This document shows positions 17,489 through 45,210 of a DNA stretch of 64,000 bases, piece after piece. This DNA comes from Dendrophyllia cribrosa (Eukaryota; Cnidaria; Anthozoa; Scleractinia; Dendrophylliidae): contig JAJLRJ010000013.1 in NCBI GenBank assembly GCA_024195265.1, positions 2,799,075 through 2,863,074 of the forward strand, read 5' to 3'. How positions within the stretch are numbered: position 1 is the first letter of the stretch; each line of letters opens with the position of its first letter. The position numbers and the translations under genes were made by a program. The notes under the pieces were generated by a model that saw only the letters and a list, made by a program, of their open reading frames with translations, made no database searches and was not told the origin of the DNA.

Positions 17489-18847
17489 ATGGGTACTAAT
17501 ACGTCAAGTTTACGGCACACGGAAGATTTTTCTTTCTCGAATCGGGCAGCTGTGCCTAGATTGTCGGGGAGATCACATCGTTCTTTACCCTCAGAAAATC
17601 GCCATGACCACCTTTTCGACGTTGTCATTCAGCTCAAACATGAAGACAAGGACATTTATTCCTGTTTCTTTCCGAGTGATGACGACAGCGTACTTTTGAC
17701 TGCTTCTAAAGTAGAGCAAACGACTTTTTTACAGCGAAATCGCGAATTTTCATCGATAAGATTATGGGACCTTCATCGGCGGCAGATCAACACTGGGTTT
17801 TTGGCGGATTTTCCACGCTCGTTCAAATCTTGCGACTTTTCACCTGACGGGCAGTTGGTCGTATGTATTTTTAATGAAGATTCTCTCGCTTTGGTGAGAA
17901 TGCGATCGTGGAAAACAACCAGCGCCGAGGTTGTTCACATGCGGAGATTTTGGCGAAAGAGAAGGGGAGTTTTAATGTGTTGTTCCTTCTCACCGGATGG
18001 TCGTTCTCTTGTCGTGGCATCTAAATTAACCGGAGATTTAAATCATATCTGTATTATTGACATCGCCTCCAAGAAAATGGTGAGGAAAATGAAGTCGGCC
18101 ACGAATTCCAGTTCGAAAATTCGGGGGCACGCTCGCTCGTGTGTATTCTCACCCGACGGATTGTTCTTGGCCGTGTCGTGTACTTCAGGTCAACTGATTG
18201 TTTTTGATACTCAGGACTTTCACATTCATAGTAGCCTCGATTTGGACACTTCTACCTCATCCACGTGCTTGTGTCTGCCATTTCGTCACGCAAGTCGCCG
18301 ATCACTCAGTTCACACATGCAATGTTGGTACCTTTTTGACCCCCGTTATGGTCACAAATACTTAACATCATGTCTAGAAGATGGTACCATTCAGACATGG
18401 TCACTAGCTGCAGATGAACCTGGCCTTACTTGCATTCAGTTTGCTTATGCACTGCAAACGCCCTGGCAGAAGATACGATCTGCTGCCTTTTCCCCTGACG
18501 GCACAATGCTTGCGGTTGGCACATCTGATTCCAAAGTTTTAGCCCTGAATTCCGAAAGCTTGCATGTTTTGTTTGTACTCAATGCACACCTCCAACCTGA
18601 TGGCTTAAGAACTTGGTACCAGAATACAGAAGTGTCTTGTCTGGCATTTACACGCACCTGTCAACAGCTTGCTGCTGGTTACAAGGATGGGCGTGTTAGA
18701 GTTTGGCAGTTGCCGTTGATTTTAAACCTTCAACACATGTGTAGATTGGTTGTCATTAAACACGTTCCTGCACGTGAAATTCCTCAGCTGCCCCTCCCAG
18801 CTCACTTGGTCAGATATCTTTTATTCTCCCCTCTAAAACAATTCTAA
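17489..18847 (+). CDS. WD40-repeat and SOCS-box protein (WSB-like), single exon
   Basis: A 452-aa uninterrupted ORF. Recognisable WD40 blades: CDFSPDGQLVV (about 115-125), CSFSPDGRSLVVAS (165-178), CVFSPDGLFLAVSC (218-231), EDGTIQTW (297-304), AAFSPDGTMLAVGT (332-345) and CLAFTRTCQQLAAG (384-397) ending RVRVWQLP. The C-terminus (412-447) is a SOCS box: a BC-box-like LQHMCRLVV for Elongin B/C and an LPLP Cul5-type motif, followed by HLVRYLL. Proteins of this design recruit substrates to a CUL5 ubiquitin ligase; the target is unknown. The ATG is the first in frame and gives an MGTNTS start, a possible N-myristoylation signal. The C-terminal tail resembles animal WSB1/WSB2, but the blades are too diverged for a firm orthologue call. 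The lack of introns contrasts with its neighbours. Confidence 0.88.
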   Translation: MGTNTSSLRHTEDFSFSNRAAVPRLSGRSHRSLPSENRHDHLFDVVIQLKHEDKDIYSCFFPSDDDSVLLTASKVEQTTFLQRNREFSSIRLWDLHRRQINTGFLADFPRSFKSCDFSPDGQLVVCIFNEDSLALVRMRSWKTTSAEVVHMRRFWRKRRGVLMCCSFSPDGRSLVVASKLTGDLNHICIIDIASKKMVRKMKSATNSSSKIRGHARSCVFSPDGLFLAVSCTSGQLIVFDTQDFHIHSSLDLDTSTSSTCLCLPFRHASRRSLSSHMQCWYLFDPRYGHKYLTSCLEDGTIQTWSLAADEPGLTCIQFAYALQTPWQKIRSAAFSPDGTMLAVGTSDSKVLALNSESLHVLFVLNAHLQPDGLRTWYQNTEVSCLAFTRTCQQLAAGYKDGRVRVWQLPLILNLQHMCRLVVIKHVPAREIPQLPLPAHLVRYLLFSPLKQF

Positions 18848-24264: not shown

Positions 24265-27200
24265 ATGGCGAGTATCCGTGAATCCACACAGGAAAGATCT
24301 ATCAGGTAAGATAATGTTCGTTTATCCAACGGCCGTCAGAAGGTTTGTATATGCGCTATACGGGTTTCTACTGTCAGCACGTGATAATGATGATGAAACC
24401 TTTATTGAAGTGTCATCATATCACAATAACGGGGGGTGACAACCCTAAGAAGGCCTGTTTCGGGAGAAAAACAAAATTCTTCCGGGAATCTGAAGATTTT
24501 GCCGGGAATCGGGAGACTCGAAAAAATTTCGGGGAAACATGAGATAAGCTTAATGTTGTTAAAATTTCGGGAGGTTTGAAATTTTTGCGAGAATGTCTCC
24601 GAAAAAATCGGGAAGATATTCCAAATTTTCGGGACAACTTTCAGTTCCACACAGTATTGCTCAAACAGCGTTTGTTAGAGTTGTCACCCCCCGTATAATA
24701 TATAGATAGGCCGAGCCTAACAACGGTGAAACTTAACTAAAGTGAAAGGTCAGAAGCACAAGAATTAAGATTGACGACCGGGCTATTTTTTAATTTTAGC
24801 AATTCTGAAAAACAGTTAGCTTATTACACGGTACAGCCTACAGGTCCAATGAAATTAGAGTTAGAGGTTGTTAAGAACTGCGTGGTATCTGATTACGCGA
24901 CCGTCTGCACTTTAGACCGTACAAAAGTTCACAAAAACAACTTTTTCAACGTCTAGAATATAGTACGACTACTTTCCGAATAAAATACACTTGTTGCTAG
25001 TCAAAAATTGCCCGAGAAACTGATTTGGAAATCAAAATTGCAAAATTACACAAACATTTGCATAAGGCGACGTTAGTGAAGAAAATCCAAGTCTTGTTTT
25101 GTTAACATAAAATCGCTTTTCAATCTATGTAATGAATGAACAAACACATAAAAATGGACAACACAATCTTATTCAAATCGCCATTAGTTTAAGTGGCTGT
25201 CTCCCTAAGGTACTCATAATCAAAATTAGTCATGAAACAGATTTTCTTCAAATCTTGCATGTGAATTACACTTTGTCTAGTAACTTTAAAAACACATTTC
25301 GTTTGGTCTGAAAATGCTTTCTTCAACAATTTACAGGGGGTCCCCTGGGGGACCAAATTTGATATTTTTTTAGTATGAAAAATGCAAAATTTCCCTAACT
25401 TTTTTATGTTTGTTTTCATGATATTTAAGATTAAGGTGGCTGAACACAGTTTGCGCACGCTCTTCAATTTCAGCTGCTTACGTGAGTCAGCACACGCAGA
25501 GTTTTGAGAAAAACAAATGTGGCGCCTATATTCAGCGATCATTTTATTTTGCTCAGCGTGGATGACGAAAGTGTTGTTTTTCGTCTTAAAATCAAACAAT
25601 TTGTTGCTCATAAAACTGTTTGTTGAATCAATAGATAATTTATGGAACCATTGAAGAAATACACTGCCTTTTTGGTCGTTTTTGTCTTTGGATCAAGAAC
25701 CCAGTCAAATGCAACGCATGCGCAGTTGACCAAAAAATTGTGACTGGATGTTTTAGCGACTTTCCTCGGAAACATGCTGATTTCTACGGAACCACTTGTT
25801 AGAATTTCACAAAATTTGGCAGCAATAATAGTTCCGAATATGCCGAACTTACCTGCCATCAAAAATTTGAAATCTAACAGAGGAGATTTTTACAAAATGC
25901 AAACATATTAAACCACAAATTATGGAAGATCCCTCTGTCAAAATTACACGATTCCAGTGTTAACACGCGAAATTTTACGAGTTTACTGAAGACAAATGAT
26001 GGACAAAATCTAACGACTAGATTTTCTGAAAATAAACGAAACCAAATATTGCAGGCTGATTTACAATCCACCGTGTTGCCATGGCAACACCCTTAAAGCT
26101 CAACAAAAATATCAAAATATATAGCTTGTTGCTTAATCATATGCCTCACCAATTTTGGACGCCCAGACGTTAGTGGTTTAAAAATGACAATGAATGACGC
26201 ATAGGTACAGTGAAACTGTGCTCAGCCACCTTAAGTCTTCGTTGTTCTATGGCTGCAAGGAAATTGCTGTACGATGATCCACTTTTGGTTTAGATGAATT
26301 TTTGTGAACCCATTTTTCCTGTTTTATTACAAGCTGTGTAAGTGGGTTGATAGAAGTTAAGTAATGATCCGCATAAGAAGGATAGCGCTGAACGGCAATG
26401 CACGATGGAATGTCAACTTTTTTCATTGTTACAACTAGTGATCTCATTGGCCTAGACTAAAAAACTGCTAAGAAGTTAAGATTCAAGGTGCATTTTGTCT
26501 AATTTTTTTAAGGTTTCAAGTCATTTGAGACCCAATCACCCAACATGCAATTTTTAAAAGATAATTTGTATTTGGGGAACTTCATCAAAGAAGCAAAATT
26601 ATTAGCTGTCTTCTGCTATTCTGATTGGTTAAGCACGAACATTTCCTAAAATTTATTTGACGCAAATGGATTTTCTTTATTTTTATAATGAAATATAATT
26701 ATGAACCATCAGCTCCTCCTCTCTTCTTGAAACCAAAGATATTCTATGTGGGAAAGAGCCAATGCCGCAGAACAATGAAGTTTACTATAGTTCTTATGTG
26801 GAGCATTACGTAATGTTTGACTACTTGAAACAATGATATGGAAACTTTTATAATGTTGTAATAATAACTGGACTCGTACCTGTCTAAAAACAGTATAATT
26901 TAGCTCTGTGTCAAATTTTAAGTATTGCGAGAAGTTGCCAAAGTGAGGAAAATTCTGCATTTTTTATACTAAAAAAAAATATCAAATTTGGTCCCCAAGG
27001 GGACCCCCCTGTAAATTGCTGAAGAAAACATTTTGAGACCAAACAAAATGTGTTTTTAAAGTTACTAGACAAAGTGTTCTTCACATGCAAGATTTGAAGA
27101 AAATCTGTTTCATGAGTAATTTTGATTATGAGGATCTTAGGGAGACAGCTACTTACAAGCAAAATGCATACCATTTATAGCGCATCAAGTTTGAGCTGCC

Positions 27201-30200
27201 TTCAATGAAATTCAAGAAATCGATACAACTGATTTTAATCACGTTTTAAAAACAATTCTCCAAAACTAACAAGAACACAAAGAAAAAGTCAATCACAGAT
27301 TGATATCAACATAAATTCCCATCGAAAAATGTAATCTGTTTTTCCTTTAAGTATGAGGGGTAATTACCGCCAAAATTAAGTTTGGGATTTAGTTATGCTG
27401 TTTGCCAATGCGGTTTTTACTGTTTTCACTGGTGTTTTTGATGTTACGAATTGTGTTTTACGTGTTCTCAATTATGTTCGGCAAAACATCGCTGTTGTTT
27501 TTGTTGCCCTTGCATTCGATTATTCGTTGCAAATTTTGTTTTCTGCGTAAACAATTCTCTTCTGTATTTACGCATTTTGTTGTTCCATATTGTGTTATGC
27601 GAACTGTGATTTCATTATTTGTGTTTCAAATTATGTTCTTCCAAATCCGGGTCTTTAGGGAGCGTGGCCGCTATGGTCTGGCGCAAGTAATAAATTATGC
27701 ATATTTTTCCGGTGGAAAGAAAATTTATGCTACTCTCGTAAGTGGTAATTTACTTGTAAATTAGAGTTAACAACTCGGAGCGTTTTTCATGAATGTATGT
27801 AGACTGTTTATTCATCCAGGCATTCATGACAGCTCACTTAGTAGTATCTTATTTATGGCTGTCAACATTTGAACTGTGTCACGCGTGACATTGTACTCAA
27901 CCAGACTGAACTGCTCTTTGAGTTATGATAAGTATGCGTTGTTATCTTTGTGTAATCAATACAAAGTTATGCCTTATCGGGCCTCACATGCTAGTTTGCA
28001 TGCTTTATACTGTGCCATTAATAGTGCATTGTTTGTGGTCTGTAATCGATACAAAGTTATGCCTTATCAGGCTTTTATACATAGCTGCGTGTTCGCGTGT
28101 TCTCTCCCTGTACAGCACCTTGTGTTGCCGTGAGTTCACCATTTGCTTATCTCAGTTTACTGTGCTCTGTTTTTTCTCCCACCTCACCCCTCCTTATCAA
28201 TAAAGCTGGACTACGGGCTTGGGTGCACACCTGCCACTTAGGGTTGCACGTAGCAGACTGGGTGGGACCCTGACCCCACCTTAGCCTTACACTAGCCGGG
28301 TGTGGCATGCGCCACACTCGTTGGCTCATCCCTTAGTTTTATTGCATTTTACCAGGTGTGGGATGCCCCACACTTGTTGGCTCATCCATTACCGGTGGGG
28401 TGTGTTGCTGCCACCCCCTTTATATTACCGTTGCAGGGTGTGTCGCTGCCACCCTTATTTTAGTCCAGGGTGCACCCAACAACCTTGGTCCCATTTACTG
28501 CCAAAACATTGTGTGGTTCTCTTGTGTATTTACTTATAAGCGGGAAAGTTGTTAACAGACCAAGCATGATGGCAGAAGTCGTGAGGACTCGTCTTTGAGC
28601 ATGGATAAATGAGATTTCAAAATTCACAACTTGCCTCACCAAACTTGGATTCTGATAGCCAGGAATCAGTTTATTATCGTGTTGAAACTCTCTATAACAC
28701 AGTTGTAAGGTTCGATGGAGTTTGTGGAATTGACGGCATTTATATATTGTTTACCATCTGAGAGAAGTGCGGGACCTTATACTCAGCTCCCATAATCTTT
28801 CTTTTTCTGCACATATATGCAATGAGATTTGCATCTCATTGCAAACTTGATACCTTAGAAGAGGCGATTATTAAAAAAAAAAGTGTTAAACTTCTGATGG
28901 TTTGCTTATTTTCCTTTGTGAACTTTGGAATGGAAAGGGGGAGCGATTCTAGAATACCCGGCCACTTATTTACATTTCACTGAATGTTTTGTAGAACAAG
29001 GCATATGAGAACAAAAGGATCCATTCTTATTCGATGAAATCAAAATAAGTGGCCGGTTATTCTAGAATCTAACCAGGGATAGGAAAGAGACAGAACTACT
29101 GTTCAGTGGGAAGGGATCCTGAAGAGCTGGTAAAAAGGAGTCTGCTTAATCTTTTAACTCCTAAGGGTACCAATCATAAAAATTCAAGAAATTACATTTC
29201 ATAAAATATAAAAAAAAATTGTACCATTCAAAAGCACTACTGAAGATGTTTCATTTGAATGGTTACGCCATAGGATTTGGTTCACAGACTCAAAAGTTAG
29301 AACTACGTACATTACACGTCTCCATAATGACTCTGAGAATTTGCCACAATTAGAAACGAGAAGGAAACTGGGCCAAGTAAACTTTCGTAACGACTTCTGG
29401 GATCGTTACAGGGGACGCTTCTTTTGTCTCTGTTCCCAGTAACAGTCCCAGAAGTCGTTGTGAAAGTTCACCCGGCCCAGTTTCCTTCTCGATTCTAAAG
29501 TGGCGAATGAAAGGGTTTAATAGAAGTGCAATGAGGCGAAGCTTTTGGGGAGTCAAAGTGTAACACCGGTGCAAAAAGTGTAATACCAGTGCAAAAAGTG
29601 TAACACTAGTGCAAATTACAAATCAAAAATAAAAATTGATGCAAAAATGTTTTGCAAAAAAAAATTTTCCAAAAAAATTTTTTTTTTTCCAAAAAAAAGG
29701 AAAAAAAATTTGCAAAAACAAAAGAAAATTCCAAAAAAAATGGATGCAATTTTTTTTTCATGTATAATTATTAATAAGTAATCATACGGTTGTCTCGTTC
29801 AATTTGGGATAAATTTGCACTTGTGAGTTTTTTGAAAAACTCACTCGTGCAAATTAATCCCAAATTGAACTCGAAACAGTATGATTACCTATACTAATAG
29901 TGATGTATTGACAAGATGCACTTGACAGAGCAATCAACTCAGACTACCCGCCATTAAACTAGAATGTACTAGGAAATCGTTTTTTTACCATGGCAGTGTA
30001 GTTTTTAATAATTGATAGATTCTCTTGTTAATATTGCATTTTTTATTTATATATTTTTATCCATTACTTAATTAGCAATTTTATTGATTCTTTTATTTTG
30101 TATATTGTTTTTATATTTATCTTAAGGGCCTCTATTGATAACAGTTTTTTACCTTAGTTTGTAATTACTGAAAGAGTTACCCAGTGTAAATAAAAGTATC

Positions 30201-33200
30201 TATCTTATCACCCACTTTTTTGTGAGTGCGGTGTCAAAATTAAGTTTCTAACCCAAAGACCACACCTCCTGTGCCTACAAATATCTTTTTCTTTTTTCAA
30301 GCCAATTTCTGCTTAGAAATAATATTTGTGCTTTTCAACTGAATTATTGGCCTAGACTCCACATCAGTGATGAACAGTTGAAGAGTCGTATGCTGTTGGC
30401 AGTTCCAAAGAAAGGAAGACTCTATGATCAGTGCATTACCTTAGTGGAGAGAGCTGGAATTAAGGTAAAGTAAGCCAGCTTTAGCTGTGATAAGTTATGC
30501 TATATATGCTCTCTACAGTTATGCTCTCAGCCCTTAAAGTGCACATAACGTTTAATTTTTTATTTTCTCATCTAAATGTAAACACCACACAAGGAACCTC
30601 TGCGAAACAAGTTCGCGCTTTGCAAATCGCGAACTTTGCGCTTTGCAATCTTCAAAATCCTATTTTTTGTGGTATACCTGTCCCGCTGTTAAGAAGGCCA
30701 ACGGGCTGAGCCACATGTTCCTTAATCTACGTCACAGTTCCTTTGTTTGAAGTCACAAGTTCCTTTGTTTGAAGTTATGTGTTCCTTAATCTACCTCACA
30801 GATCCTTTGTTAACCGAGAGAGACCGAGAGGAGACTAATGCGAATGGTGGACCAAAATGGCGGCAAATTTCGAAGACTTTAAAAAGTCATAAAAAATTCA
30901 TGTTTTGCTGAAATCAAAAAAATTTTCGCAGATGTTCATTACATGTACGTGATGTGTAGATTTAGATAAGAAAATAAAAAAACCATTATGGGCACTTTAA
31001 CTAAATGGCTGCTGGCATTAAACCAGCCTATGTTGAATTTTGCAGACATGTGTCACTCACAACTGTACTCAGCCTGGTGTTTTGTTGAGCCGAGAAAGCA
31101 TTCTCTAAAGTTCTAAAGTAATGACATGTTCATTTAAGTTAAAATAGAAGAGAGCCAATCAGGTTATTGTCTTTCAATTATTGAAAGTACATTTTGACTC
31201 TTTAATTCAGTCAAAATATTTTTTTTCAAGAATGTGGGATGTTTGAGCTTATTGAGTCTCTATAACTTCAGCTTATATTGGCTAGTCATAATTTTAGCAG
31301 TATAATGCTTTTTTGGCTTACAAAACATGAAAAATATCAAAATTCAACTGAGCCCTTTTGCAATTTAAATTTTTTTTAACCTTTACACTCTCTTTCAGTA
31401 TCACAAGAAAATACGCCTGGATTTGGCTCTGTGTACTTCACTCAACAGTAAGATTTTGGAAACATGATGGTTATGCATTGTAAATCTTTATTTCTGAATT
31501 ATTTAATCTTAGTTTATACTATTTTTATTTTGCAGTGGCTCTTGTGTTTCTTCCTGCATCAGACATTGCTCTTTATGTCAGTCAAGGAAGGTCAGTGAAT
31601 ACCGGGGGCTCGTGTTCTTTAATATTTTATAGTTTCTAAACTCATGTCCAATAGATAAGCTTCGGGAACGAAGGTGCCTTTAGGTATGGTGGAGCCACAC
31701 CTGATACGAGCAGGAGTTGCAGGTATCCATGGCAACCCTGAGAGCAGCAACCATCAGGCTTCCGTTGATAGAATCAGTGGAGATACTTGCTAACCCATAT
31801 ACAGTACTAACGTAAACCAACAGCTGGAGTCGACGGAGAGGGATGGGAGCAGCAAAGTTACACACATGTGTGATTGAATGCTAAACACAATTTGCACATC
31901 CACACACAGCGGGAACACAAAGCACGTAACACTTCTGCAAAAACCCTGTATGCATGCACAACCTTAAGCAAATGACCACCATGAACTGCCATTATTGCAC
32001 TAACCAACATGTGGCTTATTGAGTCTAACTTAAGGGGGCTATCACCTATGTCATGGCGGTTTTATGTTTTTGTCTCAGACTGTGTAGAATTAAAACTGAG
32101 CATCTATTTCAAACATGAAATGCTTTTAGAACACCAAGAACAAGATATCATGTAAATTCTTGTACAAAGAAAAAAAAACCCATAATCAGTTTTTAGCAAA
32201 TTTTCTAAAACAAATTTGAAAAAATTGTCCATTTTTTCAAGTTGCAATCGTCTACTTCCATCCTAACGATCTGTATAAGTCATCAGACACTTGTTTATAG
32301 TTTCATTATACTTGTAAAGCAATTTTAAACAAAACTGGACCATTATTTTTGCATTTCCTCTGAAATAATAATAAGTCTTTATTCATCAGATAAAAATACA
32401 TCATCATTTGTTTTTGTTACAATCTGTTACATATACAATGCCCTTTAGCTTTTTAAAGTAACACTAAAAATGGTAACAAGCCTCTTTAACCTAAATTTCA
32501 TTTACAAATTAAAGCCACATTTTAACAAGTGAAAATTATTACATGTATGTAGTCATCACCAGTTATTTATTCTTCAGATTGTTACTTCAATAGCGGCCCT
32601 TATGCATGTTTACATCTGGTTAGCTAATTTCACCCCCAAGCCTCGCTTTCGAAGTGGAAACCTGTGACAATCTCATCAATGTATTCTCAAAGGAGCAAAG
32701 TTGAAAAGAATACCCACTCAAAAACAACGTGAACTTGTCAAAGGTTTGCAAGGAATTTCACACAAACGAGGTTTGGTGGTGAATTTTGGGCTGGTGACAT
32801 CATCATGCATAAGGCTATATTGAAGGGCTGTCAGAGCATGACACCAGCCTAAGTCAAATTTTAAAATATTTCACCCACAAATTGTGTTTTTTTAAAGTGC
32901 CCATAACGATTTTTTTTTAATTTCTTATCTAAATCTACACGTCACGTAATGAACATCTGCGAAAAAATTTTTTTGATTTCAGCAAAACGTGAATTTTTTA
33001 TGAATATTTCAAATCTTCCAAATCCTATTTTTTTGTGGTATAGCCGTCCCGCTCAGTTAAGAAGGCCAACGGGCTCACATGTTCCTTAATGTACATCACA
33101 GTTCCTTTGTTAAAATCACAGGTTCCTTTGTTTGAAGTTATGTGTTCCTTAATCTACATCACGGATCCTTTGTTAACAGAGAGAGACCGAGAGGAGACTA

Positions 33201-36200
33201 ATGCGAATGGTGGACCAAAATGGCGGCAAATTTCGAAGACTTTAAAAAATCATAAAAAATTCGCGTTTTGCTGAAATCAAAAAATTTTTTTGCGGATGTT
33301 CATTATGCAACGTGTAGATAAGAAAATAAAAAAAATCGTTATGGGCACTTTAAGCCAAGAAAGCACTCTTTTGCTTAAGTAATATGTCTCTATTTTGACT
33401 CTGAGAGTGAAAAAATAAACTGGCACATTTTAGGCATGCACAATAATTGTCAGTTATGAACTTGTACAGTAAGCGAGAGATGATTGGAAAATAATTTTAA
33501 CCATTTATTATTTTACCAGAATCGACATGGGTATCACAGGACAAGATGTCGTGGCTGAAAGTGGAGGAGATGGTATGGGCCATTTAAAATATTTAAATTT
33601 TAATCATAAAATTATTAAAAACAAAAAATAGGTGACACATAAAAGTAAAAAAAGATAATTAAAAATAAATTTAAAAAATAATTAAAATTAAAAAAATATA
33701 TTTTAAAAATATATTTACATATGTAGTGAATAATACATAAACTTGCCAAGAAAACATTTTATTTCACAAAACTTAATTATATGAGTCACATTGTATTATT
33801 TCTGATACATCATATTACTGAGAAGTTTTCTTTTATTTCAGTTCATGAGCTTTTAAAGCTTGGATTCGGCAAGTGTAAGCTTGCAGTGCAGGTAAACATT
33901 TAACAATAAAACATGAAAATTAATCCTGGCTTACTTTAAAACACTGAATTGATATAGTTACAATAACATGTTACAATTATTAACTATAGTTATAACATGT
34001 ACAGTACCTGCATGAAAAGTATTCACTCTGTAAAATAGCTTTCACTTGTCTGAATGGTCACAATTACAGTCAAAATACTCAGCGCATTCCACTTATCATT
34101 TGGGAATGACTTTCATTAATCGCGGGTGGATTGCATTATTGAAATCAAAATTCAGGTTTAAAATTGATTATTGGAATCTTCCAACGGTAGCCTCATTCAA
34201 AATAATGAATTTTGATTGGTTTATTTACTGACATTTACAGTAAGTCAAAAGTTCACAGGTGAAATATGTGACCATTGGCAGCTGTCACTTTCAGTGAATT
34301 CAGTCGCTTGGACTTGATAGGAAATTTTCTTCACTTTCCATGAAAATTTCTCTTTCAGAGCCAGCACACTAAATAAAGCTTTTTAAGAATTCTTCTTTGG
34401 AGTTTTATAAATGCAGAGCTTTCATTCTCCACGTCAAAAAAATACACAGCTGTGATGAATTTTTGTTGAGCGAACAGAAATAGGTCAGATGTGTCAAGCC
34501 TCCAACTGTCCGCGAGCTGCTTAAATGCATGTGATCATTCGCCTGATGTCAATGAAACCAATCAGCATTCATTATTTTGAATGAGGCTACCGTTGGAAGA
34601 TTCCAATAATCAATTTTAAACCTGAATTTTGATATCAATAATGCAATCCGTTCCCAATTAATGAAAGTCATTCTCAAATGATGCAGAATGTGCTGAGTAT
34701 TTTGACTGCAAGTATTATAACTAATTAAACTTACTGTACAGCATAATAAACAGTACCACAGGAAAGTACTGCTCAGTAGCTTTCATTTGAATGGTCACAC
34801 TTCAGGATTTCATTTACAGACTCAAAAGTTAGAACCACCTTGTACAGCATAATAAACACTACCACAGGAAAGTACTGCTCAGTAGCTTTCATTTGAATGG
34901 TCACACTTTAGGATTTCATCCACAGGCTCAAAAGTTAGAACCACCTTGTACAGCATAATAAACAGCACCACATGAAAGTACTGCTCAATAGCTTTCATTT
35001 GAATGTTCACACTTTAGGATTTCACCCACAGACTCAAAAGTTAGAACCACCTTGTATAGCATTGATAATAAACAGCACCACAGGAAAGTACTGCTCAGTA
35101 GCTTTCATTTGAATGGTCACACTTTCTAAGGATTTCATCCACAGACTCAAAAGTTAGAATCACCTTGTACAGCATAATAAACAATACCACAGGAAAGTAC
35201 TGCTCAGTAGCTTTCATTTGAATGGTCACACTTTCTAAGGATTTCATCCACAGACTCACAATGTAGACTGAACCACCTTGTAGAGCACAACAAACACCAT
35301 CACATGAAAGTACTGCTCAATAGCTTTCATTTGAATGGTCACACTTAAGGGTTTAATGATCTACAATGTACAGACTAAAAAATTAGAACATTTTTTTCAA
35401 CCCTCCTCTCAGAGTTTGTAAATCCTGATGAAGCAGCTAGTCTTCCTTGTGTTTGATAAATTAATAATTTCTATCAACAGGCTGCAGTGACATCAAATAT
35501 TTCAAGCACTAAGGAGCTTGTTGGTATGAAAACTTAAAACATGTTAAAACATGTCTGGCCTGCATGTCAAGCCTAGATTAGCTTTTGCTACCTGCAGGCC
35601 AGTATTATAAACTCTATAATAACTAACTAATAAAGATTTTTGTTGTTGTTGTTGTTGTTGTTGATAATGCTGACCTACATGATATGTACCAGCGATAATA
35701 TCTGTGGTATTTATTGTTATGAGCTATTTGTCTTGCATTCAGGTCAGACCTAGGTGTTAATTGCAGGTATTTGGTGATGTGACTGCTAAGTGACAGTCGG
35801 GCAAAATAATAATGGAAGATCAATACTAGTAATGCAATAGTTTTAAGTAGTTTATACTATGAAATATCCCTCGAGTAACTTGATTTTTCTTAGTATACAG
35901 TCAGGCAGCACAGTTACTCCTACACATATGCAAGTCAGCGAGGCAATCAGTGTTTAATAGATGTAATTAGCTTTTGGACATCGTGTTTCAGTTACTACTA
36001 AGAAAATGGAAATGTGGTTAATATTTGGGTCTAAAAATGTCTGGTCATCCTGCATCACTCTTGTATTAAAAGTGAATTGTTGGAGGTGCAAAAGGTCTGC
36101 AGACATCAGGGGCTGGGTGGTTCCAACCAAATTTCCCTTGTTTCAGTTTGTCTGTAACTAAACTCTATGTGAGGTGGACATTCTCTAAGCAGACAGCTAG

Positions 36201-39200
36201 AGGTGCAGGTCTTGAGTGTGTCTGGCTTACGGAAAGTTCATTGTATATAATAACCTGGAAATTGTAATTGAATAGTTTTAAAATAATTTCAATGTGCTTT
36301 ATACACATGTAGGGAAAAGAATTGTCACATCATTTCCAAATGTAACAAGGAAATATTTTTCTGTAAGTATTATGAAAAAGTTATTATTTGCTTTCTGTAA
36401 CATATGTTTTTCTGATGTTTTACTGATGTAGAGTAAAGTTTCTTGTCGGAGGAAACAACACGATGGCTGGGACACTGTCCTTCAAATCTGAAGTCAAATT
36501 GCGCTAACCACGACACTGCCATGCCTATACTGTTATTCATACATATACCTGCAACCTTGCGATGGGCTAGCATCCCACTCTGGTTGCTTCATGCTACAAA
36601 AACTATGTTAAGCTCCACCCAAGTGGGCCACCTGTGCATGGTCCGGGCAATTTTACCTTTGCCTACCTTCATTTTAACAGAAAAAAAATAAAGAAAAATC
36701 ACAGGCCATTTTGTACTCACATGTACTTACCCAATGGAAACAATCCAGGGAATTTACCCATAAGCAAGAATTCAAAACCCTCTCTGTTGCATGGTTTATA
36801 TATACAATTCACAAAACCTTGAAAGTTCTACCCAATATCCTTATAACATATGGCCAATGTGCTAAATGTAAAATGTACATGTATATGCTTATTTTTTTTT
36901 CATCCACAGCAATTTGATCCTGACAACAAAACAAAAATAAATTATGTCAATGGATCAGTTGAGGTGTGCAATTATTTTAAATGTTATTGATTAATGTGTT
37001 CACTGATTAAACTGTTTGACAGCATTCAATTTGTTTTTACTATTTGTTACGTGTCTGCCACTTTTGAAGGCAGTCAATCACGTGATTGGTAACCGCTGTA
37101 ATTGATCGATAATAATATTAATGTTTCCAACTACTATTACATGGGGATGATAATGACATACAAACGGTTATGGACTACAGTAAGGAGAACTTGAACATCG
37201 ATAGTGCGTGCGGATTATGAAAGGTTAAACATGGTATCTAGTTTCTTAAACCACGATCATGAATGTTCTGGGGTCACTAGACTGTCTTCAACTGACAGGC
37301 ATTACATATTCAGCCGCCAGACTGATCTACTGACCTCTACTCACTCCAAGGGAATAGTAACTGCCAATAATTAAATGATATATAAATGATCAATTATTTT
37401 GATTTGCTTTTTGTCATATTTTTAAAGGTTGCTTGTAGTCTTGGTGTGGCAGATGGAATTGGTGAGTGGTTGTATCCCATCTTTACTTTGCTAATAAAAT
37501 AAGACTCAGCAAACTCACTGAGATGCCAAGACCCTTGTTTAAAAGTCCGAGCCAGAGACAAGAGTGAGTCTTCCGAAATTCCAAACCCAAGATGCAAAGG
37601 TCCAAAAATCTAGACCAGAGACAACAAACTCCTGTACATTAACATCCGTTTCTCTTGCTACATGTATGGTTCCTTATTTTTTGGTTAGTTGCCGCTTGTT
37701 AAACTGCAAGCTTCTGGCTGATACTCCCGTCCAATGCGGCCCTGTTTTTGCCGAGCCGAGATTCCCTTTTTCATTCCGAGATTTAGAGATTCAGCTAAAA
37801 TGTACTCATTCCAAATTTGTGCTCCCCTATATTTCAATGAAAATTTTCCTTAATTTATTTTTCTGTAATGAATATGTTGGATGCTGATAGTGTATCATGA
37901 CTTTGTATGTTTTCATGTAATATAAAATAATTATTCAAATATCCTGGAAGATTATTAAGAGTACATTAATAAGAGTGATAGGAATAATGGCTTTGTGTCC
38001 CATGGTGTTTTATAGTGGTCGTTTAAGCTAAACTGTATGCCTTTTTGCAGTTGATCTGGTTGAAACAGGTGACACTATGCGAGCTGCAGGGCTGGAAGTG
38101 ATATCAGAAATATTGGAGACAGAGGTACATGGACAATAAAACTATGTGGTACCTGCTAATACGAACTCCAATGGGCTGTTAAAAATGCTTCAATTATTAA
38201 CATTATTAACACCCCAAAAGTGGCCACAACAGGACTGTCATTAGTAGGTTAATTATGGCTGACAACTGTAGTGAAGATGACTAGCTACTCTAATAAAGGA
38301 CAACAACCATGAAGACTATCTGGAATTTATGACCGCCTATTTTTCTTGTGTTGCCAGCAAACTCAACGCTTAATGTCAGGCCTGCAAAACAAGGAGGTGG
38401 TTGTGTGTTTATTGTTTTTTCATTTTTTTCTTTTCAGAAAAACTTAAAAGTTTTCTTATCCTCCTTTTTTGCAGGCAGTGCTTATAGCAAACCCTAACAC
38501 TCATTTCCAGGTATGTTTGACATTCAAATAGTTTCGTTTTATTGTATGTTTTATCCAGCTTTGCCAGAGTATGCAAGGAAACCACAACAATCCACGTATT
38601 CCCCCATACATGGAAAGCCCAGACCAAGAGATCAGGAATGCGTTGCCGTACCTTTATTTTTTTTTTGAACAGCCATTTGTGTTCTTTAAAATCCCTACTA
38701 GTTTTAGTGCGAAAAAGTGTAGCGGACAAAGCCAGCTGAGGTTTATTCTGTCATTTTCCAATGACTGATGATCGTCTAAACTGAGTCAAGCTGTTGAGTA
38801 CAACCGGCATGTTTCCAAGTTACATTTAAAGTGCATATGAAGTAAAAAAAATATTTCCATGGTTTGATAGTGCTTTCCTTTCTTTATCTAAATTTGTGGG
38901 TTTCATCGAAAAGATCCTTCCCATTGTGAAATTATTCAGCTTGAAAGTTTTGAATTTTCCGCCAGAAAGTGTCTCCATCGAGCGCGCGGCCAAAGCTATT
39001 GTATTACAAGGCTGTGACGTAGAAAATACTTCAACTCACGAGTATCATGGCGGCAAAGGAGAAGTCTTCGACCTCGGCGACTTTCTGTCTGTCTGACAGA
39101 GACTCTGTAGAAGACATAATTTCATCACAGTCTGACATTCTTTTGAAGAAATGGAACGAAACACACTGTGAGCATACAAAAGAAGGAATCTCAAGTATTT

Positions 39201-42200
39201 TCTACGTCATCAACACAATGGATATTGAAAACTCATTCCCAGTCTCCGGGACACTGATTTCTGCAAATTGTGCTACTTTGGACGGCAAAAGAGAGGCCTT
39301 AAATTTTTCTCTGACAAATTTCTTTTATCATTTCGAAATAAAGGCATAATAGCCTCCAAAAAAATACAAAATAAAAAATTACTTCATATGCACTTTAAAG
39401 TGGCTATGAATGATGGATTATCTGTCCCTAGTATAAATTGGGCCACTCATAACCGCCTGCTCTAAACACTTAATGACTGGTCCCGAGGAAAACAGTGAAC
39501 TTTGTTTCCAGAGTAAACGTAAATTGCCACAACTATTGGCTTCTGCCGCTTTGCGCTTGGATGTTCTTTCTCTTCTGATATTGGCTGGAGTCTCTAGCTC
39601 TTGGCAGTGACTTACGCATTCTTTAACTAGTTTCTCCTCAACACCAATCTTCTCAACATAGTCTCGTATTGCTTGGTGGTGCTCCTTTGTTGAAAGCTTA
39701 AGTAATCTGAACTCTTGGTAGCCAATCGTCCAGAGATCTAGGGCTTCCATCTTTATTGTAAAGAGGGGTTTTGAAGACTGGTAGGAAGTGTCCTGGATTG
39801 GTACGATCTAGCATTGGTTGGGGAATTCGAGTTGTCTCAAAACCTGTCCACACGTTTTCTTGGCAAAAAGAAGAGAGAGTTCCATATAGATTTCACCGCG
39901 AATGTAGTGAGAGTACTGGAACTCCATTATCTTCTTGATGTAGCCTGCCCATTTTCAGGTTTAAGACCACCCCCATTTTCATGGGAAAATATTTCGGGGC
40001 GTCGCCCTTTTCTCGCCCACCGCTCCCCTCCCATAATAAATGACCGGTTCCCTATTTGCCATCTTTATTATAGGATGTAGTCAAGACTGTAGCATCAAGA
40101 TTTGAAGGGATCATCAATGCTAACAAGTCTGTATAAATTCTTAAAATAGTAGTGTTTTGCTGTCTTGTTATATTGTTTAAATCCTTCACTTCTAGTCTTT
40201 TAAGTTTGGGTGACATCCGCAAGTGCGGCCATAAATAAGCTATGTAACAAAACTATCCTGTGATTCTGTTTATTATGCTTTACAAGAGTGGTGTAACGAT
40301 TAATCGAATTGTCGATTAATCGCGATTATGACCATTCGGTTCGATTCACGATTCTTTGCTTCCACGTTTCGATTTTGGTTCGATTTTTGCATACCTTTTA
40401 CTGGGTGCTCTCAATGAGTTATAATGATATTGTGAAATCAGAATTCAGAACTCTTTAAAATCTGCGTTTTTGATTGACGAACAAAGGCGTTTGCAGTTGC
40501 AGTTGCAGTTGCAACAGTTACAGGCGTTTTGTGTTGCCTGATAAAATTGCTGCCCTTCTACCACGTTCTCAAACATGGCGACGAACGACCAAGCAATCGT
40601 GAATCCGCCTGCATTAATTTAGATCAGCTGTGTAGAAATACATGGTTTTTGGGCTAAAGACGGTACAACAGATAAGTCTAAAACTATCTGCAAGAAACAT
40701 TTTCATAATCGAATCGAAATATTTGAAATAGAAAGGCAATAATCGAAATCGAATCGAATCGCAAGGAATGCGAATCGTTACACCCCTAAAGAGCGTTTTC
40801 ACTTGACGTCATAGCCGCCATATTGGTGTTCCCGTACAAAAGAATTTTAATTAACTTCTTTTGTTAGGAACACCAACATGGCTGCCATGGGCCTTTATCA
40901 CGCCCCGCCATTTTGTATAAAAACAAAAGATTTGCCCCCCAAGCCTCGCAGTGAAAAAGTTGAAAACGAGGTTAAGCATGGGAAAACAAAGCATTTTATT
41001 CTCCTGGGAATCAACATGGCCGCCGCGTGATAAAGGCCCATGGCCTTTGTCATTTGAGTCCAACGGGACTGAAGGTCACGTGAGTGAAAACGCTCTATTT
41101 ACAAGTGGTTCTTACTAATTGTGTTTGTAGATGAAATCCTTAAGTGTCACCATTTAAATAAAAGCTGCCGAGCAATACTTTCCTTTGATGCTGTTTATCC
41201 TTTTTTTTTTTCAGAAAACAAAATTTTGCATTTATTTGAGTTTAGGACTTGACCACTTTAACGAGTTTAATTTATAGGGTTTTAAATTTTTATTGTGATG
41301 TATTTAGTTATTTGTAGTTACTTGCAGGTATGTGATGGTTGAATACAATGTGGAAAGAACGGTTCTTCCAGAAGCACTCAAAATCACTCCAGGAAAGGTG
41401 ATTAAAATGTGAAATGTTACCGGCTATTTTACGCCGTATTATTCTCATCATTCTGCGGGAATTAGTTCATTCTGAAATTGTCCCAATGTACCATTCATCA
41501 TTCCGTGGGAATAAGTTCATTCTTAAAATGACCCAAGATACTAACTCATCATTCAGTTGGAATAAAATTATTCTTAAACTGACCCATTATACTACTCATC
41601 ATTCCGTCGGAATTAGTTAGTCGGGCTGCTTACAAGCAAGCCCGACTTATAAATTTGGTTGTGTGCTTCTTGTTCTCTTATTATTGCCAGATTTGGCGAG
41701 AATTCCATCGGAAAGCCGACAATGTTGAAGAACTAAGCAGTCAACATCTTTCAAATATTTTTTAGCTATACCAGCTAATCACAGCGACGAACTTCCAAGT
41801 GGGAGCAAGTCTGAAGTCATGTGTTCCTTAATGTATGTCACAGCTCATTTGCAGACCGAGAGAGGACTAAAGCGAATGGCAAGCCAAAAATGCCGGCAAA
41901 TTTGAAAGTTTTATAACATTATTTAACAAATCGCGTTTTGCGCAAGTCGCAAAATTTTTTCGCAGAAAGTCCTTGAGTGACATTTCCATTCTGGTGAGAA
42001 AATCTAAAAATTTGGGTTGTGGGCACTTTAAACTGACCCAATATACTACTCATCATTCCCCAATTTTTTTTCTTTTAATCAACTCAATGTACGTTGAAAA
42101 GTCGAATAGTGAAATATTTCTTGTTTTTAACGTCGCGTTAGTGAGTTATAGAGATATGAATTTACAAAATGCTAATTAGATGACGTCAAATCAAGACTTT

Positions 42201-45200
42201 ACCATTATTTCTACTTCATTTTACAATACGCAGTTCACAGCTTAAGGATAATCAATTTAAGAAATACTAAATAAAAACCGTTAATAGTCAATTGGTTTGT
42301 AAAAAAATATTACCTGGAGGTGGAAACAACGGTTCAAACGTCGCATTTCACATGTGCCGAATATAATTCCTATTTTAGTCGACTAAAATAGTTAAATTCG
42401 ACATTTGATTCAAACGTCGAATTTAATTGTGCCGAATTTAACTCCGTTAGCAGTCATTGCCATACATACATACTTTATATGATAAAGCAGGTTAAATAAA
42501 ATGGCAGCAAATGCTGATGCGGACCTACTATTGATACAATAACTAATAACCTCTAGGACAGCTTGTTATCCAAAATGGTAGACAACAACGTGGTTGGTGA
42601 AGTCGACGAAAACTCTGTTCGTTTTATTCAAATATGATTCGCAACAGCAGAAGACGCAGGATAATGATGCAATCAACCGTCAACTACATTGTTTAATCTC
42701 TTTGCTGAAGCTTACATCATAAACAAAGGTGAAAAGACAGCTTCTCAGACACTGATCATGTCTAAGACTGGCAAGAAACACTGGATGGTGAGAGAATGTA
42801 TTGGAAAATTACTCTGATGCGCGATTATACAGATTATTATAGATTTTCCCTCTTTCCACCCAGGAGTGGTCCTTTTCGTCTTCGAAAACCGAGCACCTCA
42901 TACAAAGGTGATTACCGCATGTGCAAGAACCACACATTCCGTCGTCTCCGCCGTGTTTCCAGCGTTGTTAAGACTCTTCTGCGCATGGCATTCACGAAAA
43001 TCCTGTGGGTAATAAATGAATCATAATAATTTACTATAATTTATGCATTATATTCGGCACATGTGAAATGCGACGTTTGAATCAACTGCCGAACTTCTGT
43101 CGAATATTCGACTGGTCCGTCGAAGATGCGGCAGAAGTCGCATTTAATTCAAATCAGTCGAATTTAATTGATTCAAACGTCGCATTTCCAACATGCATTT
43201 AATTCGTGAATTATATTCGGCACATGTGACATGCGACGTTTGAACCGCGCCTTATTAACATTTTGTCAATTCAAACCTCTACAATTCACTAACGCAACGT
43301 TGAAAACAAGAAATATTTAACTATTCAACTTTTCAATGTGACATAGAGTTGATTAAGCGAAAAAAACAATTTTGAGTTTAGGTGCACTTTAGAGTACTAC
43401 TGTAGCTCTTCCAGACCTCTATTTTTATTGGCCCCGTAGTACTGTAGCTTCTATTGTGTTTAGGTCTAGGGCTATTGTTTCTGTTGTTTAACCTATTGTT
43501 TCGTTAACCAATCACTGAGCTTGTTTGGAAAGGTACAGCCTCTCCCGCACTTTAAACTGACCCAATATAATTTTACTCATCATCCAGTGGGTATAAGTTC
43601 ATTCTTAAACTAACCTAATATACTACTCATCATCCAGTGGGAATAAGTTCATTCTTAAACTGACCTAATATACTACTCATCATTCAGTGGGAATAAGTTC
43701 ATTCTTAAACTGACCTAATATACTACTCATCATCCAGTGGGAATAAGTTCATTCTTAAACTGACCTAATATACTACTCATCATCCAGTGGGAATAAGTTC
43801 ATTCTTAAACTGACCTAATATACTACTCATCATCCAGTGGGAATAAGTTCATTCTTAAACTGACCTAATATACTACTCATCATCCAGTGGGTATAAGTTC
43901 ATTCTTAAACTGACCCAATATACTACTCATCATCCAGTGGGAATAAGTTCATTCTTAAACTGACCCAATATACTACTCATCATTCCGTGGGAATAAGTTC
44001 ATTCTTAAACTGACCCAATATACTACTCATCATCCAGTGGGTATAAGTTCATTCTTAAACTACTCATCATCCAGTGGGTATAAGTTCATTCTTAAACTAC
44101 TCATCATCCAGTGGGTATAAGTTCATTCTTACACTGGCCCAATATACTACTCATTCTTCCGAAGGAATTACTTCATCCTAAAACTGACCTTACTCATCAT
44201 TCTCATTTATCAACATTAAGTATTCACAATTCACAAATATCCTTCTAATCCTTTTCCCACTAACTCCTTTTTAATTTAATGTGGCTGTGTTCAGAGGTCT
44301 GCAACACTTTCTCCTTTGGAAGATGAAAACTGGGTAGCAGTTCAAGCAATGATACTTCAGAAAGAGGAGAATAAGATACTGGACACGCTAAAAGGTTGGT
44401 TTTACTATTGTCACCACCATGTTCTACATCACAACAAAAATGAAAACAGGCTTGCCGTGTCGCCTGTGCAAGGGTGGCTCCAGAGGCGATTTTCACAGTG
44501 CACTGGTGATACAAAATATTATTCATGTAATCACTTGTGTAACTGCGACCTTATCAACAATGCCATTGTCATCATCACCACCACCATCCCCGACACCATT
44601 GTAGTCATTCATCGTCGTGATCATCAACCACATCATCGTTGTTCTACAGTCAAAGTTCTCTGAGCGGACTCTCTTGTAAGCGGATAGCTCTACTTACGGC
44701 CGCCTTGACATTAACCCCGTTTGAATTCTCCAATAACAAGAATCATTCCCGTAAGTGACCAGCTCCAGTTACAGACACTTCCTGCTTCCCTAGGGTGTTC
44801 GTTTGAGAGGGCTTTATCTCTATGGTCACTTACGGAAATGAGAAGAATGAAAATGAGATTGAAAACGGGGGTTGTAAGTAGAGCTGTCCGCTAAGAGTGT
44901 CCGCTCAGAGAGATTTCACTGGAGTAATCACCCCATCCCAGGGCCCGCGCAGGGGGAGGGGCCGGGGGGCCAGCCCCCCCCCCACTACTTTCTGTGAAAA
45001 AAAATAACAAAATAAGGTAATTGACATTTTAAAATAACAGAGTCTGCCCCCTCCCTTCAATTGAAGACGTGGAGCGGCCCTTCATCCCCGCTACTATTGT
45101 CGTCATCATCATCATCATCCCCCCGTAACTAACGAACGACTTTTTTTTTCTTTTCAGGAATTGGTGCTCATGACATTGTTACTTTCAACATTCAAAACTG

Positions 45201-45210
45201 CCGGGCTTAA
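24265..45210 (+). CDS. hisG: ATP phosphoribosyltransferase (HisG/HIS1), 16 exons
   Basis: First enzyme of histidine biosynthesis: ATP plus PRPP gives phosphoribosyl-ATP plus pyrophosphate. Proposed exons: 24265-24305, 30356-30464, 31399-31447, 31536-31590, 33520-33572, 33842-33891, 35481-35523, 36313-36362, 36910-36963, 37428-37461, 38051-38124, 38475-38510, 40074-40126, 41328-41397, 44295-44394, 45158-45210. All phases agree and total 924 nt (307 aa plus stop); yeast HIS1 is 297 aa. Motifs in order: VPKKGRLY (30-37), VFLPASDIALYV, DMGITGQDVVAES, LGFGKCKLAVQ, GKRIVTSFPNVTRKYF, VNGSVEVACSLGVADGI, then the PRPP-loop-type VDLVETGDTMRAAGL. The C-terminal regulatory domain of the long form follows (EYNVERTVLPEALKITPGK, NWVAVQAM, GAHDIVTFNIQNCRA). 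It reads like the fungal/long form. Exon 1 is supported only by a good start context, a consensus donor and matching phase. The exon 13 donor (AA then GTCTGT) is weak. Introns carry the same repeats as neighbouring animal genes, which argues against contamination. Confidence 0.95.
24429..24694. mobile_element. MITE-like element
   Basis: Inverted termini ACGGGGGGTGACAAC and GTTGTCACCCCCCGT enclose 236 bp rich in TCGGGA/TCCCGA motifs, themselves partly palindromic. Confidence 0.85.
25431..26234. mobile_element. Nested element with TTAAGGTGGCTGA termini
   Basis: Inverted ends TTAAGGTGGCTGAACACAGT and ACTGTGCTCAGCCACCTTAA, 804 bp apart, inside the 2-kb inverted-repeat structure. The terminal TTAAGGTGG recurs at 45311-45958, so the two may belong to related families. 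Confidence 0.82.
26355..26815. repeat. Dispersed segment, copy 1
   Basis: This stretch matches 47617-48075 in inverted orientation over about 460 bp, including GTGCATTGCCGTTCAGCGCT (copy 2 strand), CAATGCCGCAGAACAATGAA and CCAATCAGAATAGCAGAAGA-type blocks. Confidence 0.85.
28945..29072. repeat. Foldback element
   Basis: Inverted arms GATTCTAGAATACCCGGCCA and GGCCGGTTATTCTAGAATCT around about 70 bp. The interior GTAGAACAAGGCATA is shared with 57900-58043, so the two are probably one family. Confidence 0.8.
29210..29345 (+). repeat. Single unit of the 87-bp family
   Basis: Contains GTACCATTCAAAAGCACTAC, TTTCATTTGAATGG, ATAGGATTTGGTTCACAGAC and CTCCATAATGACTCTGAG in family order, with the CTCCTAAGGGTACC flank just before. 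Sense to hisG. Confidence 0.75.
29347..29505. repeat. Foldback element
   Basis: Arms AGAAACGAGAAGGAAACTGG and CCAGTTTCCTTCTCGATTCT with an inner ACGACTTCTGGGA pair around about 50 bp. Confidence 0.82.
29783..29900. repeat. Foldback element
   Basis: Inverted arms AATCATACGGTTGTCTCGTT and ACAGTATGATTA with an inner CAATTTGGGATAAATTTGCA pair meeting at a TTTTTTGAAAAA centre. Confidence 0.8.
30534..31000. mobile_element. TTAAAGTGC-terminus element, copy 1
   Basis: About 467 bp with ends TTAAAGTGCACATAACG and CATTATGGGCACTTTAA. The interior has GTTCCTTTGTTTGAAGTTAT, GAGAGACCGAGAGGAGACTA and CAAAATGGCGGCAAATTTCG. In hisG intron 2; further copies at 32892-33353 and about 41815-42031. Confidence 0.88.
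32892..33353. mobile_element. TTAAAGTGC-terminus element, copy 2
   Basis: Ends TTAAAGTGCCCATAACGATT and AATCGTTATGGGCACTTTAA are near-perfect inverted repeats; the interior matches copy 1 over its length. In hisG intron 4, same orientation as copy 1. Confidence 0.9.
34068..34712. repeat. Inverted repeat, arms about 160 bp
   Basis: Arms 34068-34226 and 34556-34712 contain TTGGAATCTTCCAACGGTAG and its complement, GTCAAAATACTCAGC, and AAATTCAGGTTTAAAATTGA, around a spacer of about 330 bp. It lies in hisG intron 6 beside the 107-bp array. Confidence 0.9.
34735..35390 (+). repeat. 107-bp tandem array (six units)
   Basis: The anchor TTTCATTTGAATG recurs at about 34782, 34890, 34997, 35104, 35212 and 35322. 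Units are close to those at 9255-9850; the last unit decays about 90 nt before hisG exon 7. Sense to hisG. Confidence 0.95.
35637..35662 (+). repeat. (TTG)n microsatellite
   Basis: Seven or more TTG units preceded by AATAAAGATTTT, the layout of a retroelement or SINE tail. Confidence 0.85.
38826..39398. mobile_element. Element with TTAAAGTGCATATGAAGTAA termini
   Basis: Inverted ends TTAAAGTGCATATGAAGTAA and TTACTTCATATGCACTTTAA, 573 bp apart, in hisG intron 12. It carries a 100-codon open frame (39047-39349) of unknown nature. The TTAAAGTGC end is shared with the 30534 and 32892 elements. Confidence 0.85.
39418..39750 (-). CDS. Unrecognised 110-codon antisense ORF
   Basis: An intact ATG-to-stop frame on the minus strand in hisG intron 12. 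Its composition looks protein-like: charged segments (STKEHHQAIRDYVEKIGVEE, KLVKECVSHCQELE) and a basic stretch (RRERTSKRKAAE) with paired Cys/His. No family was recognised. It is probably a gene fragment or mobile-element remnant captured in the intron. Confidence 0.3.
   Translation of the reverse strand: MEALDLWTIGYQEFRLLKLSTKEHHQAIRDYVEKIGVEEKLVKECVSHCQELETPANIRRERTSKRKAAEANSCGNLRLLWKQSSLFSSGPVIKCLEQAVMSGPIYTRDR
40286..40788. mobile_element. hAT-like element with GGTGTAACGATT ends
   Basis: Left end GTGGTGTAACGATTAATCG and right end CGAATCGTTACACCCC are inverted. The interior is rich in CGATT/AATCG. GGTGTAACGATTC-type termini are known from hAT-family elements. 503 bp, hisG intron 13, no intact ORF. 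Confidence 0.7.
40790..41098. mobile_element. MITE with AGAGCGTTTTCACT ends
   Basis: Inverted ends AGAGCGTTTTCACTTGACGT and ACGTGAGTGAAAACGCTCT about 300 bp apart. The interior holds several CATGGCCGCC/GGCGGCCATG-like blocks and two inverted GGCCTTTATCACG copies. Directly adjacent to the previous element. Confidence 0.82.
41130..41210 (-). repeat. Single 107-bp family unit, antisense
   Basis: On the minus strand it carries the AGCATC...GGAAAGTATTGCTCGG block, TTTAAATGGTGACACTTAAG and the GGATTTCAT block. It lies in hisG intron 13, opposite to the gene. Confidence 0.65.
41425..41620 (+). repeat. Diverged outlying copies of the 50-bp satellite unit
   Basis: Three or four irregular units with CATCATTCCGTGGGAATAAG and TTCATTCTTAAAATGACCC-type blocks, about 2.1 kb upstream of the main array at 43555-44165 and interrupted from it by other elements. 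Confidence 0.8.
41815..42031. mobile_element. TTAAAGTGC-terminus element, truncated copy 3
   Basis: The interior ATGTGTTCCTTAATGTA, GACCGAGAGAGGACTAA and GCGAATGG blocks and the GTGGGCACTTTAAA right end match copies 1 and 2. The left terminus is not found. Confidence 0.7.
42331..43246. mobile_element. 916-bp element with GGTTCAAACGTCGCAT ends
   Basis: Inverted ends GGTTCAAACGTCGCATTTCA with CATGTGCCGAATATAATT and the mirrored right end. Further internal copies of the same terminal motif occur near 43045-43080 and 43160-43190, suggesting nested insertions or repeated termini. In hisG intron 14. Confidence 0.85.
43555..44165 (+). repeat. 50-bp satellite array, about 12 units
   Basis: Units of ACTGACCTAATATACTACTC plus CATCATCCAGTGGGAATAAG plus TTCATTCTTAA, with a regular 50-bp period. 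The last units shorten to about 34 bp by losing the TGACCCAATA block. The array ends about 130 bp before hisG exon 15. Confidence 0.95.
44657..44914. mobile_element. MITE-like element
   Basis: Inverted arms TCTCTGAGCGGACTCTCTTG and AAGAGTGTCCGCTCAGAGA with inner CGGATAGCTCTACTTAC pairing. 258 bp, hisG intron 15. Confidence 0.87.

Follow-up and report, generated by a model that had tools for sequence, protein, structure and literature searches.

Histidine synthesis is absent from most animals. The closest described exception comes from stony corals, for which the sections of Ying et al. 2018 (PMC6214176) on this pathway describe a complete fungal-like histidine pathway in Fungia and Goniastrea, with Stylophora added and parts of it in corallimorphs. 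According to the same sections, every pathway gene except IGPD carries introns and synteny is conserved, complex corals and anemones lack a complete pathway (with K04486 occurring in complex corals and K01663 in Nematostella), and the coral pathway is called unique among animals and ancestral. A later paper citing this work remarks, in the part of its text at hand, that function is unproven (PMC9506716). In an octocoral, ATP phosphoribosyltransferase is described in symbiont-derived transcripts only, as far as the accessible passages of that paper extend (PMC5976621), and the available portion of PMC11988736 contains no mention of coral, cnidaria or sponge. Very recently, the sponges C. candelabrum, O. 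lobularis and S. ciliatum were stated to be able to synthesise histidine (excerpts of PMC12465263, 2025). Histidine synthesis hence extends beyond the robust corals, since HisG occurs in sponges too. The relevant passages of two further papers date the loss of histidine synthesis, in whole or in part, to the animal stem (PMC6040629, PMC4339202), which is contradicted for HIS1 because both sponges and corals have the gene.

The locus described here encodes a long-form ATP phosphoribosyltransferase (HisG/HIS1) of 307 residues. It lies in a window, i.e., the whole stretch of DNA that was analysed, of 64,000 called bases without a single N, corresponding to positions 2,799,075-2,863,074 of contig C5 (28.9 Mb) of a 627-Mb assembly comprising 22 contigs. 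With the robust-coral pathway, as far as it is set out in those sections of Ying et al. (PMC6214176), this genome shares the intron-bearing HisG, a trifunctional HIS4 located by FARSA (SYFA), an intronless IGPD as well as HIS7, HIS6 and HIS5. HIS1 and HIS4 reside here on one contig, whereas they were on different scaffolds there. The coral HisG reported here is an additional orthologue of the published case and not new in kind; what is added is a one-gene tree of coral and sponge HisG together with the equal contig sizes listed for HisG and ALG6 in Pocillopora and in Oscarella. A literature search of titles and abstracts, covering few subscription papers and no preprints, returned no report joining coral and sponge HisG in one tree and none noting a HisG-ALG6 linkage.

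Gene structure and genomic setting

A scripted rebuild of the gene gives 16 exons between positions 24265 and 45210 of the plus strand, with a coding sequence of 924 nt including the stop codon; all 15 introns are of the GT-AG type and the phases fit throughout. The HisG protein of Desmophyllum pertusum (P0001) matches 15 of the 16 exons in collinear order with 26.6-69.7 bits, counting matches on the plus strand above 19 bits inside 24000-46000 only, while the best chance match of this protein anywhere in 20 first-order Markov windows reached 25.4 bits. The exception is the 41-nt exon 1 (MASIRE..), which is the least certain exon because its support is limited to the N-terminus MASI common to P0001, P0002, P0003 and P0005. 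The features of the window are given below; exons 2 to 16 are each obtained by the scripted rebuild and matched by P0001.

10014..14633, + strand: RANBP3 exon matches within this range (Ran-binding domain, C-terminus), from tblastn with a human fragment; upstream of HisG
17468..18847, + strand: intronless open frame of 459 residues with WD40 and SOCS box, between RANBP3 and HisG
24265..24305, + strand: HisG exon 1, start codon, MASIRESTQERSI, 41 nt
30356..30464, + strand: HisG exon 2, AVPKKGRLY
31399..31447, + strand: HisG exon 3
31536..31590, + strand: HisG exon 4
33520..33572, + strand: HisG exon 5, MGITGQD
33842..33891, + strand: HisG exon 6
35481..35523, + strand: HisG exon 7
36313..36362, + strand: HisG exon 8
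36910..36963, + strand: HisG exon 9
37428..37461, + strand: HisG exon 10
38051..38124, + strand: HisG exon 11, VDLVETGDTMRAAGL, which we take to be the phosphate-binding loop
38475..38510, + strand: HisG exon 12
40074..40126, + strand: HisG exon 13
41328..41397, + strand: HisG exon 14, start of the HisG_C regulatory domain
44295..44394, + strand: HisG exon 15, HisG_C
45158..45210, + strand: HisG exon 16, stop codon
48665..58503, - strand: ALG6, multi-exon (Alg6_Alg8, E 3.3e-147), downstream of HisG and tail to tail with it

Two short RANBP3 pieces scanned against Pfam gave no match. The WD40/SOCS-box frame, being intronless amid genes with several introns, is possibly a retrocopy. Rfam and tRNA scans of the 64-kb window found nothing. 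HisG introns 1, 6 and 13 (three of the 15) are tied to both flanks of the gene by 94 blastn matches (E <= 1e-5) with up to 94% identity over 461 bp. Two introns hold minisatellites, one in intron 6 (34735-35354, 5.7 copies of a 106-bp unit, the array being copied in both flanks) and one in intron 14 (43552-44061, 10.1 copies of a 50-bp unit). Within intron 1, at 29360-29491, an inverted repeat was recognized by eye, the arms of which, approximately 15-20 bases long (GAAGGAAACTGGGCC and its complement), are separated by about 110 bp; it possibly represents the ends of a small transposon.

The original prediction of a full-length HisG in 16 exons with consistent phases is thus borne out by the rebuild and the collinear Desmophyllum protein. 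It had also placed the gene between the animal genes RANBP3 and ALG6; both do flank it, but the WD40/SOCS-box frame lies between RANBP3 and HisG. The further claim that the introns carry the repeats of the flanks holds for introns 1, 6 and 13, and the claim that the gene is no bacterial or fungal contaminant agrees with the spliced exons, the repeats common to introns and flanks, the lack of any N and the 86% identity to the Desmophyllum protein.

Family membership and the histidine pathway of this genome

The window protein exceeds the curated cut-offs of Pfam HisG (PF01634, E 5.4e-49) and HisG_C (PF08029, E 9e-25, profile positions 1-73 of 73) as well as those of the NCBIfam equivalogs TIGR00070 (175.3 bits against a cut-off of 75.75) and TIGR03455, and by sequence it is closest in the PDB to full-length HisG chains, 1nh7 among them. 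It contains both the PKKGRL and the D-L-V-E-x-G-D-T-M-R motif, which are invariant in all seven sequences of the alignment, and PKKGRLYD, GITG and DLVETGDTMRAAGL are the same as in other eukaryotic HisG. The family motifs from PKKGRLY to the C-terminal regulatory domain had been noticed at the outset and are recovered by these profiles and motifs. An AlphaFold2 model was considered for the Desmophyllum orthologue P0001 (not for the window protein); it has a mean pLDDT of 90.8, with low values for residues 1-17, and its best PDB matches are the histidine-bound long-form HisG of Mycobacterium tuberculosis, 5lhu and 1nh8 (TM 0.83 by query). As far as can be judged through this model, the coral protein shares the long-form fold, including the C-terminal regulatory domain, with yeast HIS1 and the M. 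tuberculosis enzyme, the Desmophyllum protein being 34-35% identical to the M. tuberculosis chains. Unlike the yeast and M. tuberculosis genes, the coral gene is interrupted by 15 introns.

Judged by its family, the protein is predicted to condense PRPP with ATP, the first and committed reaction of histidine synthesis. Its C-terminal domain would be expected to bind histidine, resulting in feedback inhibition, and the enzyme would act alongside a fungal-like enzyme set encoded elsewhere in its own genome. Expression, activity and feedback control of the coral HisG are what we infer from this.

Gene sequence for six of the seven yeast-type genes, covering nine of the ten steps, is present in the genome, the genes other than HIS1 being known from exon-level matches only; HIS2 stands outside this count, and we infer its presence. 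HIS3 is an intronless IGPD in one open frame (C16:39,879,951-39,880,382, profile 1-144 of 144, E 8.4e-62), the surroundings of which share repeats with the window (three matches, best 251 bp at 78%). For HIS4, histidinol dehydrogenase was found in six pieces at C5:503,297-507,469 (profile 7-410 of 411), with PRA-CH (two exons) and PRA-PH upstream of it, giving a trifunctional gene. Stops were flagged in three of these six pieces; on rereading, two of them gave exon frames free of stops, and the stops of the third come after a donor-like exon end. FARSA exons lie approximately 3.5 kb downstream of HIS4 on the other strand. HIS7 is a GATase-HisF fusion, as GATase (E 6.7e-22) runs into His_biosynth in one open frame, and further pieces reach profile position 226 of 228 (C16:23,038,367-23,042,474). 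HIS6 is only partly covered, by eukaryotic-type HisA pieces 27-102, 100-163 and 235-255 (the last with E 0.0997) of 255 at C4:8,398,581-8,402,540, with no piece over the whole-protein cut-off. HIS5 is represented by hisC pieces 23-113, 135-221, 218-284 and 285-348 of 349 at one locus (C1:2,550,107-2,553,568); none of them exceeds the whole-protein cut-off, and for the two pieces that were rescanned hisC is the best match among NCBIfam. A search for the other HIS genes, proposed at the outset as a check, was positive for HIS4, HIS7, HIS6, HIS3 and HIS5.

Another strong hisC-profile match, on C16, was rejected as HIS5, other aminotransferases fitting better. Downstream of HIS5, at C1:2585225, 2606120 and 2613616, there are three hisC-like pieces with equal scores (profile 224-284), perhaps partial or tandem copies. 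Regarding gene positions, HIS4 (around 0.50 Mb) and HIS1 (around 2.82 Mb) are located on the same contig C5, about 2.3 Mb apart, and HIS3 and HIS7 both on C16 at a distance of about 17 Mb. The Pfam HisG profile gave no match in the whole genome and even missed the gene of the window, presumably due to the short exons. As the window's own HisG was missed, a negative profile search of this kind carries no information for genes with short exons, and further HisG copies may exist in the genome.

Relatives and phylogeny of HisG

A protein search with the window HisG gave 3,015 proteins at E <= 1e-3, the best 120 of which were listed. None of these 120 is identical to the window protein, the best being P0004 with 88% over 92% of the query. 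Among the matches listed are P0001 of Desmophyllum pertusum (86%), coral-like entries with 83-88% and P0005 of Pocillopora verrucosa (81%), followed by P0007 (65%), then P0008, P0009, Oscarella lobularis (57%) and an scpid entry (56%). From the style of their identifiers, we take P0008 and P0009 to be holozoan protists and the scpid entry to be Sycon. P0001, annotated as ATP-PRTase, is full length with collinear exons; 266 of 307 aligned residues are identical and 41 differ, and it is longer by two residues near the N-terminus. The longest contigs of P0002, P0004 and P0006 measure 1629, 1320 and 997 bases, far below the 21-kb gene, and these entries are hence presumably spliced transcripts of relatives. 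The sponge proteins (Oscarella lobularis, Corticium candelabrum and the scpid set) belong to the same family with the same two-domain plan. Those of Oscarella and scpid are 55-57% identical to the window protein, and the Corticium record, added by a profile search, comprises 271 aa and is devoid of the N-terminal PKKG motif. A scan of genome contigs for bacterial relatives yielded 13 loci from 65 stretches: one of a Spirochaetes MAG (L001) with 46% identity over query residues 4-285, and 12 (nine Helicobacter, one Helicobacteraceae, two other Campylobacterales) with 32-41% over shorter parts. Of these 13 loci, L001 alone entered a tree.

In the single-gene HisG tree, built from the window protein and 57 of 172 HisG proteins fetched, the eight coral-type rows (window, P0001-P0007) and three sponge rows occupy one side of a branch at 88/89 (not starred), which is recovered in 86% of the 200 bootstrap trees; the branch leading to the scpid (Sycon) row is long. 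Corals and sponges group at 90/93 with four of the five rows that we take as holozoan protists from identifier style and tree place; the fifth of these, P0076, falls outside. Holding the corals with 14 fungal rows was rejected (p 0.026), and so was holding them with 18 algal/stramenopile rows (p 0.031); source names exist for 13 of the 14 and six of the 18 rows, respectively, the remainder having been assigned by a first tree. Placing them with three rows, one of which is labelled bacterial, was not rejected (p 0.142). These constrained groups were picked after that first tree, which comprised 69 rows and had the animals at 94/91. Also placed among the eukaryotic HisG are P0017, P0019 and P0025, of which one carries the label of a bacterial MAG; they may be misbinned eukaryotic contigs or transfers.

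Three HisG trees group the window protein with Desmophyllum to the exclusion of Pocillopora (92/92, 94/93 and 100/93). The window HisG thus falls within the robust corals, if Desmophyllum and Pocillopora are both robust, as we assume. The refined ALG6 protein groups with P0121 (94% identical, 100/99); in the best tree, built from 11 ALG6 rows, it tends towards the Montipora side (91/98), with the robust side not rejected (p 0.217).

HisG and ALG6 are adjacent in the window, and the longest contig is of the same size for the HisG and ALG6 entries in Pocillopora (21,123,342) and likewise in Oscarella (3,475,296). Since the listed sizes are equal, both genes most likely reside on one contig in each of the two animals; this linkage is no more than suggestive. 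An apparent further case, HisG 'gene8068' (P0113) adjacent to ALG6 'gene8061' (P0179) in one dataset, was rejected as evidence of linkage: P0113 groups with stramenopile/algal sequences, while P0179 resembles an animal protein on visual inspection, and they may come from different genomes.

Origin and significance

Our main reading, to which we assign a probability of roughly 90%, is that of a native stony-coral HIS1/HisG, most likely of the robust clade, inherited vertically from the animal ancestor rather than acquired by transfer or introduced by contamination. A contaminant, or a fungal, algal or bacterial gene misassembled into a coral contig, might be suspected for a gene missing from most animals, the more so as the passages of Ying et al. 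(PMC6214176) at hand blame bacterial contamination for Nematostella matches of two other histidine-pathway domains. This explanation is already contradicted, and its probability is practically nil, by the 16 spliced exons, the repeats common to three introns and the flanks, the window devoid of N, the close identity to the Desmophyllum protein and the further his genes located on this contig and on other large ones in the assembly. Horizontal transfer from a fungus, an alga or a bacterium into a coral ancestor, with introns gained later, would explain why most animal groups are without HisG and draws on the grouping with the three bacterial-labelled or other rows that was not rejected (p 0.142). 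Nevertheless, we regard it as improbable, as the corals join three sponge genera first and holozoan protists next, the fungal and algal/stramenopile groupings are rejected (in sets picked after the first tree), and HisG and ALG6 are listed with equal-sized contigs in Oscarella and Pocillopora. Tree and contig sizes instead point to inheritance from the animal ancestor.

The two remaining alternatives concern the host and the use of the gene. If the window came from a complex coral or a corallimorph, the published robust/complex split would be broken or shifted. The weak lean of ALG6 to the Montipora side and the pathway genes mentioned for corallimorph genomes in the text of Ying et al. (PMC6214176) speak for such a source, which we still consider unlikely given the position of HisG beside Desmophyllum and a HIS4 next to FARSA, the robust-coral order described for Fig. 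7 of that paper; gene set and HIS4-FARSA order agree with its account of robust corals. Very unlikely, in turn, is a relic or moonlighting HisG, kept without histidine being made, e.g., with one later step missing: nine of ten pathway steps have gene sequence in the same genome, the HisG motif regions are conserved, and the cited sections of Ying et al. (PMC6214176) describe every step as present in Fungia and Goniastrea, with the HIS2 type (K04486) extending to complex corals.

The native coral gene is in line with the original prediction, which had mentioned a histidine pathway in robust but not complex corals, correctly according to those sections of Ying et al. (PMC6214176). A phylogeny had been proposed as a check on it, in which the corals now group with sponges and then with holozoan protists, fungal and algal groupings being rejected at p of about 0.03. 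The interpretation given there is supported, and the gene is confirmed as real and native.

Beyond this locus, it is likely that the last common ancestor of animals possessed HIS1, probably in the neighbourhood of ALG6 even then, and that robust corals as well as homoscleromorph and calcareous sponges retained it, auxotrophy elsewhere being the result of several separate losses and not of a single stem loss. If true, this would contradict the single loss on the animal stem given in the relevant passages of PMC6040629 and PMC4339202. The grouping of coral with sponge HisG and the contigs shared by HisG and ALG6 bear on the timing of the loss of histidine synthesis in animals, and they open the single-stem-loss account to tests by intron positions and gene order. 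For the stony corals themselves, a genome of 22 large contigs confirms the gene for the committed step together with five other histidine-synthesis genes, and such a coral may be independent of its algal partner or food for histidine.
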